A stretch of 64,000 bases of DNA from Cladocopium goreaui (lineage: Eukaryota; Sar; Dinophyceae; Suessiales; Symbiodiniaceae). The DNA is taken from the NCBI GenBank assembly GCA_947184155.2, contig CAMXCT020001391.1, positions 677,951-741,950 of the forward strand, read 5' to 3'. Made by a program: the position numbers and the translations under genes. The notes beneath the pieces were generated by a model. That model was not told the DNA's origin, did no database searches, and saw nothing but the letters and a program-made list of their open reading frames with translations. Every line of letters starts with the position of its first letter. The stretch's first letter is position 1. Below are positions 14,542 through 64,000 of the stretch, piece after piece.

Positions 14542-15060
14542 GTCGACATGCTGATTTACCTTTAGGATACTTTTAGATGAAGGAACTTAAAAAGTCAAAA
14601 CTGTGACAGAACCTACATGTGTTTTGTACTGAGGAGGAATATGGAGGAATCAACCATTTGTATGGACTGAAAGTGGTCGCCAATCCCTGTCCAGCGTTTT
14701 GTTGTGCAAAGGGGGTCCTGGTTGGAGTGGGCACCCATCAAGTTGATATATAAAAACAGGTCCGCTGATAGAGTTAAGTGATTGATGTTTGACAATGTTG
14801 GTTAGAACATGTTTCAAGCACTTCTCCACCTTCAACGAGTAGTCGACCATCACCCAGACATACTCAGACCAAATCTACCTTTTCACCTTTTGTTCAAAAA
14901 TTATTATAGTTCGACATGGAATATATTAGCTGTGCTGAACTCCTTGAGAAGGCGATGGAGTGAGATATGGAATATATATATATATATATATATATGTCAT
15001 ATCGGCGGTCACCATTCATGCCACCAAGTGGCATAACACCCCGTGGTTGACCTTGGGTAG

Positions 15061-31859: not shown

Positions 31860-34406
31860 TATACTGACGGACTGAAACTTAGAATGCGCATTTGGAAAAA
31901 TCAGTCCACACGTGCAAAACTGGAAAATTGCATTTTACCAGCATTTCAGAACTTTGAATGCCTCACCCCCCACCTAGGATGAAGCTAGTCGGCAATCAGC
32001 AGTTAGAATGCCTCCAAGGGCATATGTTTTTTCCAGGCAGAAACACATATATATCCTAGACCCTCCATGTCACCATAAAAAAAGGTAGTTTACCACACAA
32101 TTTTCATAGTTTTAGCAATTTTTCAGGGTATTTGAAAGTTCTGGGTATATGAATGTACCTGTTTGAGAATATCACATTGTTTTTTGTGCACTTTGCAGGC
32201 CTGGGTACTTTTACTCGCTTTCCCCATTCGACAACCTTGACAAAAGTGAGTTTCCCGTACAAAAATTGCGATTTTGGACACATACCTGAGGTAGATAGGC
32301 TTCTGGGAAAAGAGGACACACCCAGCCATTAATGGTGTTGAACAGACAGTTAGAATGTGGCTTTAGTAAAGGATCCCCATCATTGATAAATACCTTTGTT
32401 TTATCTCCTAGATGGGCCGCTAGCTGGAATGCCTGTAACTGTCACTGGTTGGAAAAGATGTTTATAACTGTTTATATGTTGTTTTTTAACGGCAAAACTG
32501 GAAAATTGCATTTTACCAGCATTTCAGAACTTTGAATGCCTCCCCCCCACCTAGGATGAAGCTATTCGGCAATCAACAGTTAGAATGCCTCCAAGGGTAT
32601 ATTTTTTCGCAGGCAGAAACACATATATATATATCCTAGACCCTCCAAGTCACCATAAAAAAAGGGAGTTTACCACATAATTTTCATAGTTTTAGCAATT
32701 TTTCAGGGTATTTGGAGGTTCTCGGTATATGAATGTACCTGTTTGAGAATATCACATTATTTTTTGTGCACTTTGCAGGTCTGGGTACTTTTACTCGCTT
32801 TCCCCATTCGATAACCTTGACAAAAGTGAGTTTCGGGTACAAACATTGCGATTTTGGACACATACCTGAGGTAGATAGGCTTCTGGGAAAAGAGGACACA
32901 CCCAGCCACTAATGGTGTTGAACAGGCAGTTAGAATGTGGCTTTAGTAAAGGATCCCCATCATTGATAAATACCTTTGTTTTATCTCCTAGATGGGCCGC
33001 TAGCTGGAATGCCTGTAACTGTCACTGGTTGGAAATGATGTTTATATGTTTTTTTTAAACGGCAAAACTGGAAAATTGCATTTTACCAGCATTTCAGACC
33101 TTTGAATGCCTCCCCCCCCACCTAGGATGAAGCTATTCGGCAATCAACAGTTAGAATGCATCCTAGGGTTTTTTTTTTCCAGGCAGAAACACATATATAT
33201 CCTAGACCCTCCAAGTCACCATAAAAAAGGTAGTTTACCACATAAGTTTCATAGTTTTAGCAATTTTTCAGGGTATTTGGAGGTTCTGGGTATATGAATG
33301 TACCTGTTTGAGAATATCACATTGTTTTTTGTGCACTTTGCAGGTCTGAGAACTTTTACTCGCTTTCCCCATTCGATAACCTTGACAAAAGTGAGTTTCC
33401 CGTACAAAAATTGCGATTTTGGACACATACCTGAGGTAGATAGGCTTCTGGGAAAAGAGGACACACCCAGCCACTAATGGTGTTGAACAGACAGTTAGAA
33501 TGTGGCGTTAGTAAAGGATCCCCATCATTGATAAATACCTTCGTTTTATCTCCTAGATGGGCCGCTAGCTGGAATGCCTGTAACTGTCACTGATTGGAAA
33601 AGATGTTTATATGTTTTTTTTTAACGGCAAAACTGGAAAATTGCATTTTACCAGCATTTCAGAACTTTGAATGCCTCACCCCCCACCTAGGATGAAGCTA
33701 GTCGGCAATCAGCAGTTAGAATGCCTCCAAGGGCATATGTTTTTTCCAGGCAGAAACGCAAATATATATCCTAGACCCTCCAAGTCACCATAAAAAAGGT
33801 AGTTTACCACATAATTTTCATAGTTTTAGCAATTTTTCAGGGTATTTGGAGGTTCTGGGTATATGAATGTACCTGTTTGAGAATATATACAGTATATATA
33901 TATATATACTTGGTTGTGCAGACAATTGTACCCCACAACCCATGCGGTCCCTCAAGGTTCCCTGGTGTTTTTCTGGAAACATACATACTTGGTATGTATA
34001 TAGAAAGTTTTTTTGAAAACATGATGCCAACCCACCCATCCATGCTAGAATATGCTAGTGCCGGACCATGTACCTTGCACCCAATGAGGTTCCCTGAGGC
34101 CATGTTTTTTTTTGACACGTATCTATATATTTATCTTTTGTAATATATGTACAGTATATATACACACACCGACGGACTGAAACTTCGAATGCTACGCTCC
34201 TTTCCTGAGAGTAGTTTACAGGCAGTTAGAATGCTCCATGATGCCCCATCGTCATTTCAGTATATCTTTATCTATCTAAATCTAAACACTTTGGGTCAGC
34301 ATTCTAACTGTCTGGTCGCCGTCCGGGGCTGCGCCGCATTCTAAGTTTACGAAAAAGGGAAATTTGGAAAAATGGGCCGCATTCTAAGTTTCAGTCCGTC
34401 AGTATA
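31860..34406. mobile_element. 2.5 kb element with perfect 29-bp TIRs
   Basis: The left end 31860-31888 (TATACTGACGGACTGAAACT then TAGAATGCG) is matched exactly, inverted, at 34378-34406. A third, direct copy of the end lies at about 34168-34190 with one change. Inside is a 4-copy tandem array. The short motif CAGTTAGAATG recurs throughout. No transposase-like frame is seen; a 71-codon minus frame recurs in the array only because the units are alike. Confidence 0.85.
31921..33886. repeat. Tandem array, 565-578 bp unit, about 3.5 copies
   Basis: Units start with TGGAAAATTGCATTTTACCA at 31921, 32499, 33069 and 33634. Spacings are 578, 570 and 565 bp. The units differ by a few percent and small indels. 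The fourth copy breaks off near 33886 into TA repeats. Each full unit carries two CAGTTAGAATG motifs. Confidence 0.93.
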
Positions 34407-56651: not shown

Positions 56652-56755
56652 GTCATGCTGGAAGCCAACCTAAGAAGCTGGAAATTGAACATGGATTTCA
56701 TGCAAAATTACTTTACTTCGTGTGATCCCCACCATGACATTTATACATTTTCTTA

Positions 56756-57010
56756 CTGGCAAATCTTCTGGCATTCTATCTGACATATCTTCTGACATTC
56801 TATTTGGCATATCTTCTGGCATTCTATCTGACATATCTTCTGGCATATATTCTGACATATCTTCTGGCATATCTTCTGGCATTCTATCTGGCAAATCTTC
56901 TGGCATTCTATCTGGCATTCTATCTGGCATTCTATTTGGCATTCTATCTGGCATATCTTCTGGCATATCTTCTGACATTCTTTCTGACATTCTTTCTAAC
57001 TTTCTTCTGC
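56756..57010. repeat. 12/15-bp minisatellite (CTATCTGGCATT type)
   Basis: Alternating units CATATCTTCTG and GCATTCTATCTG in many copies. Because units are multiples of three, both strands stay open, giving Ser/Gly/Ile or Met/Pro/Glu/Asp repeats, but no exon borders are seen. Confidence 0.92.
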
Positions 57011-57038
57011 ACATTCTTTGTCCCATATCTTCCTACAT

Positions 57039-57238
57039 GAGGTCCGGCAGGGAACACTTGGCGTGGATACTCGCGGTTGAGGTCCGGCAGGGAACACTGG
57101 GCGTGGATGGTCGTGGTTGAGGTCCGGCAGGGAACACTGGGCGTGGATGGTCGTGGTTGAGGTCCGGCAGGGAACACTGGGCGTGGATGGTCGTGGTTGA
57201 GGTCCGGCAGCGAACACTGTGAATCGCGAGTCGCAGTT
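57039..57238. repeat. 40-bp minisatellite, five copies
   Basis: Unit GAGGTCCGGCAGGGAACACT plus GGGCGTGGATGGTCGTGGTT begins at 57039, 57079, 57119, 57159 and 57199. The middle copies are almost identical; the outer ones diverge. Confidence 0.95.
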
Positions 57239-57392
57239 GAGCAGGAGGACGAGGAGGACAACGAGGACGACGAGGACAACGAGAGGACGACAAGGATGAC
57301 AAGGAGGACGAGGAGGACGAGGAGGAGAGGAGGAGGAGGAGAGGAGGACGAGAGGAGGACGAGGCAGGAGGAGGAGGAGGAGGAGGCAACTG
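57239..57392. repeat. GAGGAC purine-rich tract
   Basis: GAG, GAC and AAG units run directly on from the 40-bp array. A plus frame would be Glu/Asp/Arg-rich, but it shifts composition with frame and looks like simple sequence. Confidence 0.88.
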
Positions 57393-57892
57393 ACATAAAA
57401 TCTAACAACCCTCACCTGGCAGGTGGGGAAAAAACATCTGATGTTTTCTGTTCTTTGGAACTCATCATGATGGGATCAACGACAGAATTCAGAGAGCCCG
57501 TCAGGTTCCTCATTCATGTCGCGTGTTTTTGTGTGCGGTGCGTGTGTACTCTAGCAAGCGCCATTGCAACACCCATTTTGCTATGCACATGTCGATTGTT
57601 TTTCAACAGTTGCAGGCACTTTAAAGGAGTTCTCATTCTCACAAGCTTCCCATGCACTTTCCGTACTAATGTCATGTGCAAACATGATGGGGTTGAAAGT
57701 TTCTTGAGTGTCTTGGGCATGCAACCTCCTGTTTCCAAATGTTGCCTCCATGTCATCGAAAGCCCACGCCCCAACAGCGGACCACCGCAGATTGGTCCGT
57801 TCCACCTGAACGATTAGAAATGCTTCAAGAGCCACTCAGCGGCATGGCAGGGCAGGGCTGAAGTCCCCATGATCCAGGATTATCAGGAGATT

Positions 57893-59971: not shown

Positions 59972-61630
59972 AAAGTCCATGCCGTTTGATTAAAATAATA
60001 AAAAAATATCTTGGAGTTTGTTGTTCATTTGTTTGAATCTTGGAGCAATTTTAGTTTTTATATTTTTATGCACTCATCATCCTCATTAAAATCACCCTGA
60101 GATATGATAGCAGGAGTAGTCATTCGCTCCCTCTAGAAAACGTATTTATAGTTTCCCCAAAAGGATGGAAAAGAGAAACCTTTACTGAAATACTGATGAT
60201 TTCTTCAATATTTCTTATATTTATTTATATATATATTTTTATTTTTTTTTTTGGGGGGGGTCTGAAATTGGGGTTTACCCGGTTTACCAGTGAAAACAAG
60301 AATTTTGATCGGGATAATGATGATAAACAAGTGGATGAAGATGAGTTTTTTTTCGCTTGATTTTTCGACACATCCTGAAATGGCATGATTGCTTAGTGTA
60401 CCTCTCCTGTGCATAATTGGATTGAAATCCGCTAATATACCTGGAGTCTCCACTACCCTTCGTTTTTGGGGCCGTTTGCAAAACACCTCTTTTTTGGATA
60501 CGTTTGATACTTTTTGGGGTCGTTTCATGCAAAAGAAAGGCCTTTTATCTTCCAAGCAGGTGCTGGCTATATACACTAAGCATTACTAAGCTAAATCATG
60601 TGAGCGTTTTGTGCTTGTCCTGTCTGATGTTGGATCAGGCACCCTCGCACATCATTCAGACCCAGGCGCATAACTAAAACTTCATGGCTGAACAGCTTTG
60701 GATCCACAATTCGTGTCGATATATAAAACCTTAAATGATGAGCTGCCGGGACAAACATTTGCACATTGCGACACTTATGCGAAAATATACACGGGGTTTG
60801 AGCACATCCACTCGCCCTGATCTTGTGGTGCCAGCTGCTGAAACAGTTTTGACGGATGGACGGACGGACGTGAAAAAAAAGGTGCTCGGACGGGTCCAAG
60901 CCGGACGGATATTTCCGTACGTTGGACGCATTTTTCCGTACTTTCGGACGCCGTCCGGAAGGCCCTCAGCAAAAAAAAGGTACGCTTGAAGAAAAAAAGG
61001 CCTTTGCATGTTTGCGTTGTATGGGCAAATCTTCCAAGGACAAGTTGTCACCAAAATTGAGCAATGCACCTGCATGTCCGCAAGTGAGTGTTGAGACCTA
61101 CCCTCATGCGTGCAATAATGAAAGAGCAAAGCACGTCCAAAACCCAAAGCAAGGAAGATCGAAACCATGGCATCCAACACGTAAAAGAGAACCAATAGTT
61201 TGGAAATCTATGCTCCTGCACCTTCAAGCAGCCAAAACACAAATGGCACCTGCAACAATGAGTTGCAAGTTGGCAATGTGGCAAATGTATTTGATTTCCA
61301 CAGTTTCAGCTGTACCTCCATGAGTGAACATCACTAACATGCGAAAAACAGTACTTGATTTCAAAAAAAGTACTTTTGGAAAAAATGCATTTTTTTCTTG
61401 AAAGACACCAAAAATTCAGGGTCGTTGGAGAGTCAAGGTATATATGTATATATGTATATTCCCCTTTTCTGATGATTTCAGCACAAGCTTTTGTGTTTTC
61501 ATGTTCATTTTTAACTTCCTGGGCATAGTTTTAAAGGACTGCTGAAAAGTAGGCAAAAGCTAGGAACTGTTGGCGAACTTTCCTTTGGTCGAGGTTGAGA
61601 AGGTGATATTCTGAAGATCCCCCTTGGAAT
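59972..61630. other. Region of unassigned open frames
   Basis: Plus 60922-61323 (CLRCMGKSSKDKLSPKLSN, QMAPATMSCKLAMWQMYL) and minus 60731-61195 overlap. A run of GGACG repeats lies at 60852-60958. No splice borders stand out, and I recognise no product. Confidence 0.35.
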
Positions 61631-61632
61631 TT

Positions 61633-62800
61633 CCTCTAAAGAATAAGACAACCCGGGTTGTCAATTTCTGCTTGATTCTTTAGAGAATTAACTTTGCCTG
61701 TTTGCATGGGGTCGCGTTCTCTATGAAGGGCAGCCGGGTATGATTCTTTAGAGGACTATGTTGTGGAAGCATTTTTTTGCAATTTTGGAACCCTAAAATG
61801 ACCTTCTCAATTTTTCAAGTGCTGGCCAAAACATGGCTCAAAAGCCGCAACAAAACTGACACTAGACATGATGAGAGTAGCAAAATTTTACATAGATTCA
61901 TACAATAACTCCGTTCATCGTTTTGCCGGGCATAGCAAAATACAGACATTAAAATGTAGCAGGCATTTTGGTGGCCTTGTGTTTCCCTAATGAAATCAGC
62001 TCCAATTCTTTGATCCTTCATAGAATATTTCAATAAAAATGGAACAGAGGCATGATGTGGCATCCACTATAGGTCTGAATCAAGCGTCCTCAATGCCTGC
62101 TCTTTCTCCCTCAACTCATTCCGAGTGGACCGTTGGCCCAAAACAGTGCGATCAAACCACTCGTCCTGAGTGAGCTGATCCTTGAAAATGGCTGGGACGT
62201 AGTGATTCCGCTCACCTTCTTGAGCAAACTTGGCGTCGCAGCTGACTATGCACCAAGAATCAGGACTCTTGGTATCCAAGTCGTCACCTTCTCTCCGTTC
62301 GATCTGGATGTTTTCAGGAAGAATCCCGCACAGATAATCTCTGGCACTGAGAACCTCCAAGGCCCGATCAGACTGAGGATCAACTGCAATGGCTAAACTC
62401 TTGCCCTGCTTCACTGCAAAAAGAAAGGCATCTGCTACCCCTAGGAAGAAACCATCGTCATTCACCTTCTCCGAGTATTTCTCGATCATCCTCTCTGTGA
62501 AATCATTCGGAAATTCTCCTGGGCTACACATGGCCAAACAATGGCAAAAACATGTACAACACGTATTGAATCTTCTGGGCTCTTCTGAGTATCCTTTCTT
62601 GAGCTCTAAAGATCTCTAAAGAATCTAAATCTGATCGGTGCTGCCACCAGCTCTCCCTCTAAAGAATGTTTTTTTCCTCTCTTCCTCCTTGGTGATTCAC
62701 TGGGTCTAGATTCTTTAGAGAAAATGCAGGGCCAATGAATCTAGTAACACTTGGGAATACAAAAGAAAGCGATAAAAAAGCATGGGTTTTGATGGGTCGA
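61633..62800. repeat. GATTCTTTAGAG motif field around an ORF
   Basis: CTCTAAAGAAT or its complement lies at about 61634, 61674, 61742, 62615, 62657 and 62710, with a CTCTAAAGAT variant at 62604, in both orientations, flanking the minus-strand ORF 62067-62537. The same motif closes every unit of the array at 62.8-64 kb. Confidence 0.8.
62067..62537 (-). CDS. 156-codon ORF, possible OTU-protease-like C-terminal part
   Basis: Clean, intronless frame with ordinary protein composition: CSPGEFPNDFTERMIEKYSE ... NDDGFFLGVADAFLFAVKQG ... CDAKFAQEGERNHYVPAIFK. The sequence D-G-x-x-x-G-x-x-x-A-x-L-F-A followed about 70 residues later by N-H-Y recalls the latter half of OTU deubiquitinases, whose catalytic His sits in H-Y. 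The catalytic Cys half is not visible upstream, so the ORF is partial, an exon, or another fold. The start ATG at 62537 is convenient, but an acceptor (atgtgtag/CCCAGG) just inside is possible. Confidence 0.65.
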   Translation of the reverse strand: MAMCSPGEFPNDFTERMIEKYSEKVNDDGFFLGVADAFLFAVKQGKSLAIAVDPQSDRALEVLSARDYLCGILPENIQIERREGDDLDTKSPDSWCIVSCDAKFAQEGERNHYVPAIFKDQLTQDEWFDRTVLGQRSTRNELREKEQALRTLDSDL

Positions 62801-64000
62801 CAGGCCTTAACCTCTAAAGAATCAGAACTGGCTCGGTCCCCTTCCAAATCTGTTAAAGCACCATCTCCCCAGGGAATCCCCAGGGAACCCCCAGTATTCC
62901 CAGGTATAGCACCAGTGGTCTTCAGAAGGCAGCTCAACAAACCCCTGTGTTGGGATCTGGGTCCTGATTCTTTAGAGAGGCTTCCCCTGAAAATATCCCA
63001 AACTTATCCAAAATGAAGCAAAATAACATAGAACTATGTAAAACTACTGAGTTTTGATGGGTCGACAGGCCTTAACCTCTAAAGAATCAGAACTGGCTCG
63101 GTCCAACACCATCTCCCTAGGGAATCCCCAGGGAACCCCGAATATTCCCAGGTATAGCACCAGTGGTTTTCAGAAGGCAGCTCAACAAACCCCTGTGTTG
63201 GGATCTGGGTCCTGATTCTTTAGAGAGGCTTCCCCTGAAAATATCCCAAACTTATTCAAAATGAACCAAAATAACATAGAACTGTGAAGAACTACTGGGT
63301 TTTGATGGGTCGACAGGCCTTAACCTCTAAAGAATCAGAACTGGCTCGGTCCCCTTACAAATCTGTTAAAACACCATCTCCCCAGGGAATCCCCAGGGAA
63401 CCCCGAATATTCCCAGGTATAGCACCAGTGGTTTTCAGAAGGCAGCTCAACAAACCCCTGTGTTGGGATCTGGGTCCTGATTCTTTAGAGGGACTTCTCC
63501 TGAAAATATCCCAAACTTATCCAAAATGAACCAAAATGATATAGAACTGTGTAAACCTACTGGGTTTTGGGTCGACAGGCCTTAACCTCTAAAGAATCAG
63601 AACTGGCTCGGTCCCCTTCCAAATCTGTTAAAACACCATCTCCCCAGGGAATCCCCAGGGAATCCCCAGGGAACCCCGAATATTCCCAGGTATAGCACCA
63701 GTGGTTTTCAGAAGGCAGCTCAACAAACCCCTGTGTTGGGATCTGGGTCCTGATTCTTTAGGGAGGCTTCCCCTGAAAATATCCCAAACTTATCCAAAAT
63801 GAACCAAAATAACATAGAACTATGTAAAACTACTGGGTTTTGGGTCGACAGGCCTTAACCTCTAAAGAATCAGAACTGGCTCGGTCCAACACCATCTCCC
63901 TAGGGAATCCCCAGGGAACCCCGAATATTCCCAGGTATAGCACCAGTGGTTTTCAGAAGGCAGCTCAACAAACCCCTGTGTTAGGATCTGGGTCCTGATT
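62796..64000. repeat. Tandem array, about 260-bp unit, 5 copies, cut by window end
   Basis: GTCGACAGGCCTTAACCTCT begins units at 62796, 63061, 63309, 63571 and 63844 (spacings 265, 248, 262, 273). Units 2 and 5 lack CCCTTCCAAATCTGTTAAA, and unit 4 repeats GGGAATCCCCA. Each holds CCTCTAAAGAATCAG near one end and its inverse CTGATTCTTTAGAG near the other. Open frames of up to 93 codons recur, but they only mirror the unit. Confidence 0.95.

Follow-up and report, generated by a model that had tools for sequence, protein, structure and literature searches.

A putative array-bearing DNA transposon at a contig end of Cladocopium goreaui and its larger gene-bearing relatives

The element at the contig end

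The window analyzed here, a 64-kb stretch of the Cladocopium goreaui genome, ends in a peculiar arrangement in which one short motif, GATTCTTTAGAG, recurs around a small open reading frame (ORF) and again inside a tandem array, raising the question of whether this is a local satellite or part of an element that moves and, if so, what moves it. Allowing at most one mismatch, the motif matches the window 15 times on both strands (12 exact, 3 with one mismatch), against 0.26 matches expected and a maximum of 3 in 100 shuffles. All 15 matches fall within 61634-63871, in agreement with the initial annotation, which described one motif in both orientations across about 2.4 kb, with copies flanking a minus-strand ORF (62067-62537; 156 codons counted from TTG, 154 from ATG). 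Comparison of genomic loci, with near-identical sequence inside and unlike flanks outside, places the left edge of the element, hereafter W, at 61617, which precedes the first motif copy by 17 bp. The features are as follows.

61609..61616, no strand: left copy of a presumed 8-bp target duplication, TTCTGAAG, abutting the terminus; these 8 bp recur beside the right end of the C1105 copy, and the right copy lies off the contig
61617..64000, no strand: left part of W, truncated where the contig stops (the complete C147 copy measures 3235 bp)
61617..61631, plus strand: terminal inverted repeat (TIR) ATCCCCCTTGGAATT, recognized from genome copies, with its partner end in C147
61634..61753: three subterminal motif copies from the motif scan (61634 minus, 61674 plus, 61742 plus)
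61647..61662, no strand: palindrome GACAACCCGGGTTGTC close to the terminus, read from the sequence
62070..62531, minus strand: 154-codon ORF, a probable leftover exon by its relatedness to the N-terminal domain of larger relatives, with its frame open in the window copy
62614..62720: three more motif copies between ORF and array, from the motif scan (62614 minus, 62657 minus, 62709 plus)
62783..64000, plus strand: tandem array starting near 62783, with units of 248-273 bp and two inverted motif copies per unit

The array comprises four whole units and a fifth that is cut by the window end. The two inverted copies per unit that had been described are present in each whole unit (8 copies, of which one, at 63752, is mismatched), and the second copy of the fifth unit is cut off. 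The window stops at the array because contig C1391 (741,950 bp) ends there, its last base being the last base of the window, and the C408 copy of W likewise ends at a contig end within the array. The string CCCGGGT, at the palindrome near the terminus, is also found near ends of the nested composite family described below.

A second element, at 31860-34406, carries perfect 29-bp inverted repeats (TATACTGACGGACTGAAACTTAGAATGCG) and about 3.4 copies of a 0.57-kb unit, with TTAGAATG in both its ends and its array. The proposed parallel between W and this CAGTTAGAATG element some 30 kb away holds for the anatomy (inverted repeats, an internal array, a related motif in the ends) but not for the ends themselves, which differ, or for the target site, where the flanks permit a TA duplication and an 8-bp duplication is not seen. 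Tandem coding-like repeats with SLPDLNHDHPRPVFPAGPQPRPST and DRMPEDMP occupy 56670-57408; these also occur within the L013 composite, and SLPDLNHDHPRPVFPAGPQPRPST lies just outside the C3855 element in L057. By sequence they appear to be another dispersed repeat. Elsewhere on the window's contig, about 0.6 Mb distant, there is a KDZ transposase match (C1391:95506-95937).

Copies, ends and target duplications across the genome

At a protein identity of at least 95%, the ORF occurs at 12 loci in the 1.17-Gb genome, and the array adjoins it in all 12, with 3 to at least 5 units per fetched stretch, so that the suggestion that ORF and array travel together is borne out. W ends in ATCCCCCTTGGAATT on the left and ATCCCCCTTTGAATT on the right. 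The exact 15-base end ATCCCCCTTGGAATT has 404 genome copies (190 + 214), while the control has none on either count (0 + 0). The 21-base dinoflagellate spliced leader has 172 copies in the same 1.17 Gb (reversed control, 0), consistent with a dinoflagellate genome. The C147 copy is complete at 3235 bp, with ATCCCCCTTGGAAT and ATCCCCCTTTGAAT inverted at its ends as TIRs, and is flanked by a perfect 8-bp duplication that reads GCAACATG in the orientation of the window.

Perfect 8-bp target duplications flank 5 of the 12 ORF-bearing copies (C147, C1667, C1358, C2599, C4712), and 7 of 8 bp match in two more, one of the C1148 copies and C6130, which is situated within a TA repeat. Of the remaining five, C1105 and C3135 have flanks that do not match, the other C1148 copy lacks its left end, and C1391 and C408 are truncated by a contig end. 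Left flanks are all different among the 11 copies that keep their left end. The right flanks of the two C1148 copies are nearly identical, and these copies may represent one insertion that was duplicated. Furthermore, TTCTGAAG is both the right flank of C1105 and the left flank of the window copy, and C3135 and C4712 have identical right flanks; the flank partners of C1105 and C3135 are swapped, through assembly or recombination. With two contigs ending in arrays and two copies bearing the flanks of others, the arrays matter for one or the other of these processes.

An immobile satellite, grown by local tandem duplication beside an ORF that happens to be its neighbor, would account for a true tandem repeat of variable length and for contigs that end within it. 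However, ORF, motif copies and array recur jointly at 12 loci, the left flanks differ in all 11 copies that keep that end, and 8-bp target duplications are present; we consider this account extremely improbable, and a chance satellite is ruled out by the duplications together with the co-occurrence. The TIRs, the five perfect duplications and the two with 7 of 8 bp instead agree with the earlier hint at a mobile element. No complete transposase is present in W, the 154-codon ORF being its longest coding feature, and the copies and their ends indicate that W is a non-autonomous TIR DNA transposon, recently mobile, of an unplaced group. The terminal repeat also recurs every 8.4-8.8 kb in series at C370, C436, C593 and C721, as would result from tandem duplication of a unit that contains it, and at C56 (L022) a single end was found and its partner end was not.

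A sister family is represented by ten fetched loci, and those with an array have a unit of about 377 bp. In 8 of the 10 we located both outer ends (the left outer end was not found in L014 and L021), and all 8 are flanked by perfect 8-bp duplications, each different. The middle end pair shares a fossil duplication, CATTTACA (0-1 mismatch in the 7 scored), and the inner end pair has AACAACAT/AACACCAT (1-2 mismatches in the 9 scored); these inner ends, together with the sequence behind them, resemble W. Three end pairs with duplications around a W-like inner part point to elements inserted into one another, and the three-layer stack now appears to move as one unit, via its outermost ends.

The ORF and its larger gene-bearing relatives

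Among the 12 copies, the ORF shows 4 synonymous changes and 20 others, one of them a stop, with changes shared between copies counted once per copy. This is near the ratio expected for random change (289 synonymous, 1031 replacement, 57 stop), and divergence among W copies is similar in coding and non-coding sequence (4.3/kb versus 5.1/kb). The frame is shifted in 9 of the 12 copies and open in the window copy, C408 and C2599. We therefore reject a maintained gene, there being no sign of purifying selection among the 12 copies and a frameshift in most of them, and the ORF appears to be an unconstrained leftover.

What it is left over from is indicated by more divergent relatives, 22 of which were found beyond the 12 copies, at 26-38% identity; an alignment of the window ORF with five relatives has 12 invariant columns. 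Searches of the ORF reached no cut-off in Pfam and gave no match in the PDB, its relatives were sought in the phages, genome_contigs and viral_contigs collections with no useful result, and the same holds for the array string in viral_contigs and for an Rfam search. An AlphaFold prediction for the ORF had too low a confidence to be of use (mean pLDDT 50.5). Three protein-database searches returned 9, 31 and 12 relatives, numbers in which copies from one genome and from several assemblies are indistinguishable, and some of these relatives run through ORF, flank and array (P0008, P0027, P0041).

In C198, an ORF-like domain opens an 850-codon exon and is followed by an OTU-like and a zinc-finger-like stretch, both so named by likeness, with no library match. 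Open frames downstream carry VAVDCTYL, KGIAFDAHHSH and LAVEEHFGSLR. The exon with the last of these (the EHFG exon) has at least 93 genome matches, fragments counted apart. Judged by eye, 13 of the 22 divergent relatives of the ORF, among them C198, have it 4.5-6.5 kb downstream and in the same orientation. The exon order is the same in C3855, and blocks containing D, D and E align between the two genes at 43, 33 and 36% identity. By sequence comparison, the ORF of W is homologous to the N-terminal domain of this multi-exon D...D...E gene, from which we infer that it arose by internal deletion.

We observe that the larger gene can reside within elements of the W kind. The C3855 gene, with tandem repeats upstream of it, sits in a 28.4-kb element bounded at 14725 and 43125, whose ends read ATCCCC and whose flanks carry TATACTGTA as a 9-bp direct repeat, in a TA-rich neighborhood. 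Another divergent ORF relative (L053, on C147) is contained in an element of 5881 bp that has ends of this type and is flanked by a perfect duplication, TAAATGAC. No TIR was found within 9.9 kb at C198, and only a left TIR within 6.5 kb at C1202. In a non-exhaustive survey, none of the gene-bearing elements seen had the W variant GATTCTTTAGAG; C3855, L053 and L054 carry other variants.

The D...D...E pattern would mark a catalytic, transposase-like gene. None of 17 exon translations reached a Pfam cut-off, in a scan that took exons singly and could miss a domain split across them, and the best PDB match of the EHFG exon has an E value of 0.34; the assigned role hence depends on the conservation of this pattern between two genes. 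The lack of a Pfam match is also compatible with the gene being cargo in elements that some unrelated enzyme moves, for instance a KDZ transposase. The genome does encode KDZ transposases (PF18758 matches at least 30 places, at least 19 of them over the cut-off, and has no match in 14 control genomes), and Zisupton, of KDZ type, makes 8-bp duplications (PMC12730594). Yet none of these KDZ matches was seen by eye on the contigs among the EHFG exon matches listed, and the abundance of that exon, the position of the gene inside a 28.4-kb TIR element and the placement of D, D and E in conserved blocks all make cargo an unlikely role for it. The larger gene remains the better candidate for the transposase.

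Motif variants, proposed mechanism and known systems

Genome-wide, the motif has 530 copies, compared with 83 for the reversed control, and 78 of 100 listed places lie less than 1 kb from another, the other 22 standing alone. The motif is thus enriched and clustered, not diffusely common. With two mismatches allowed, different families are enriched for different variants, namely GATTCTTTAGAG in the ends of W, AATTCTATAGAG and CAATTTTATAGAG in those of L053, and AATCTTTAAGGG in the outer shell of composite L016. A motif that lies near ends and changes by family is the pattern expected of a transposase-specific binding repeat, and we regard it as a putative recognition site on the strength of that position and of the family-specific variants.

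The larger elements show a different polarity. In L054 (C1202), YTTAGAGGC occurs 93 times, always in one direction, from about 1000 onward beside the left terminal repeat, the right end lying outside the fetched stretch. In the C3855 element (L056-L059, 14725-43125), GATTYTATAG occurs 65 times forward and 4 times in reverse (Markov expectation, 0.06), with the reverse copies only within 0.43 kb of the ends and none in 3.6 kb of flank. In the C147 copy of W, orientations are about equal (8 versus 7).

The bias in C3855, which is in the gene sense, together with the TAG at the end of motif GATTCTTTAG, could be read as W being an introner and the motif a splice signal. Introners are inverted-repeat elements that spread in dinoflagellate genomes (PMC7789003 and PMC9860276), and PMC9860276 reports TIR-bearing introners in Symbiodinium and duplications of 3-9 bp across introner families. 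The Symbiodinium example, however, has duplications of 4 bp (PMC9860276) where W has 8 bp, and introners also differ from W in size and in the internal array; the W motif is about as frequent in either orientation, and the exon starts that homology suggests in C3855 are, on inspection only, mostly off the motif. We consider an introner improbable. On the same inspection of exon starts, the motif was rejected as a general splice acceptor.

Taken together, W is probably a deletion-derivative DNA transposon, moved in trans by a relative's transposase that binds the motif, with the array as an amplified motif-bearing segment. In this model, the larger relatives' gene would encode the N-terminal domain, the OTU-like and zinc-finger-like stretches and the D...D...E residues, and W would be an internally deleted relative of such elements, moving by cut and paste on their transposase. 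The motif GATTCTTTAGAG would be the subterminal binding repeat of that transposase, and the zinc-finger-like and N-terminal domains of a C3855-type protein are candidate binders of GATTCTTTAGAG and GATTTTATAG. Tandem duplication of a motif-bearing segment would have placed more binding sites inside W, and array length would then change through unequal exchange, as suggested by the variation in unit number between nearly identical copies.

A broader reading, which we hold tentatively and at somewhat less than even chance, is an unplaced group of dinoflagellate DNA transposons of up to about 28 kb, with a transposase-like gene that matches nothing at a Pfam cut-off, that use family-specific address motifs and nest in one another before moving as a unit via the outermost ends. 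Since the C3855 motif runs one-directionally through the whole element (65 to 4), it may mark the entire element and not the ends alone. What began as an odd contig-end repeat has become a mobile family whose larger relatives are identified. The 3.2-kb derivative, the nested composite and the 5.9-kb and 28.4-kb gene-bearing elements form a natural series in one genome, which makes it possible to test whether transposons multiply their own binding sites and thereby seed satellites.

Among the papers listed in literature searches, with subscription papers mostly outside their reach, no title or abstract start describes W, and the motif string occurs in three papers, unrelated by title. With respect to known systems, CACTA elements have 3-bp duplications and CACTA termini, unlike the 8-bp duplications and ATCCCC termini of W. 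The D...D...E pattern may resemble that of the P element and THAP9. These share 8-bp duplications, subterminal inverted repeats and internally deleted copies with W (PMC7776569), but no THAP domain was matched in the scanned exons, and the P-type RNase H profile PF21787 has no genome match at E 1 (nor any in 14 control genomes). Zisupton (KDZ) resembles W in its 8-bp duplication (PMC12730594). For Galileo and Tetris, internal tandem repeats have been proposed to supply extra sites for transposase binding and to seed satellites (PMC4079207); those repeats lie in the TIRs, whereas W has a TIR of about 15 bp and, in the C147 copy, an internal array on one side of the ORF, with TIRs that are not built of tandem repeats as in foldback elements. 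Ac/Ds, of the hAT type, combines an 8-bp duplication and a short TIR with transposase-bound subterminal repeats, and it has given rise to shorter forms, notably Ds2 and Ds-l3, among which some retain fragments of the transposase gene (PMC3260210). W differs in its array of motif-bearing units of about 250 bp and in its ends, and no hAT transposase or dimerisation domain reached the Pfam cut-off in the 17 exon translations of the gene-bearing relatives, each scanned singly. The 8-bp duplication, short TIR, subterminal repeats and gene-fragment derivative are nevertheless common to both, and by analogy Ac/Ds appears to be the nearest functional parallel of W.
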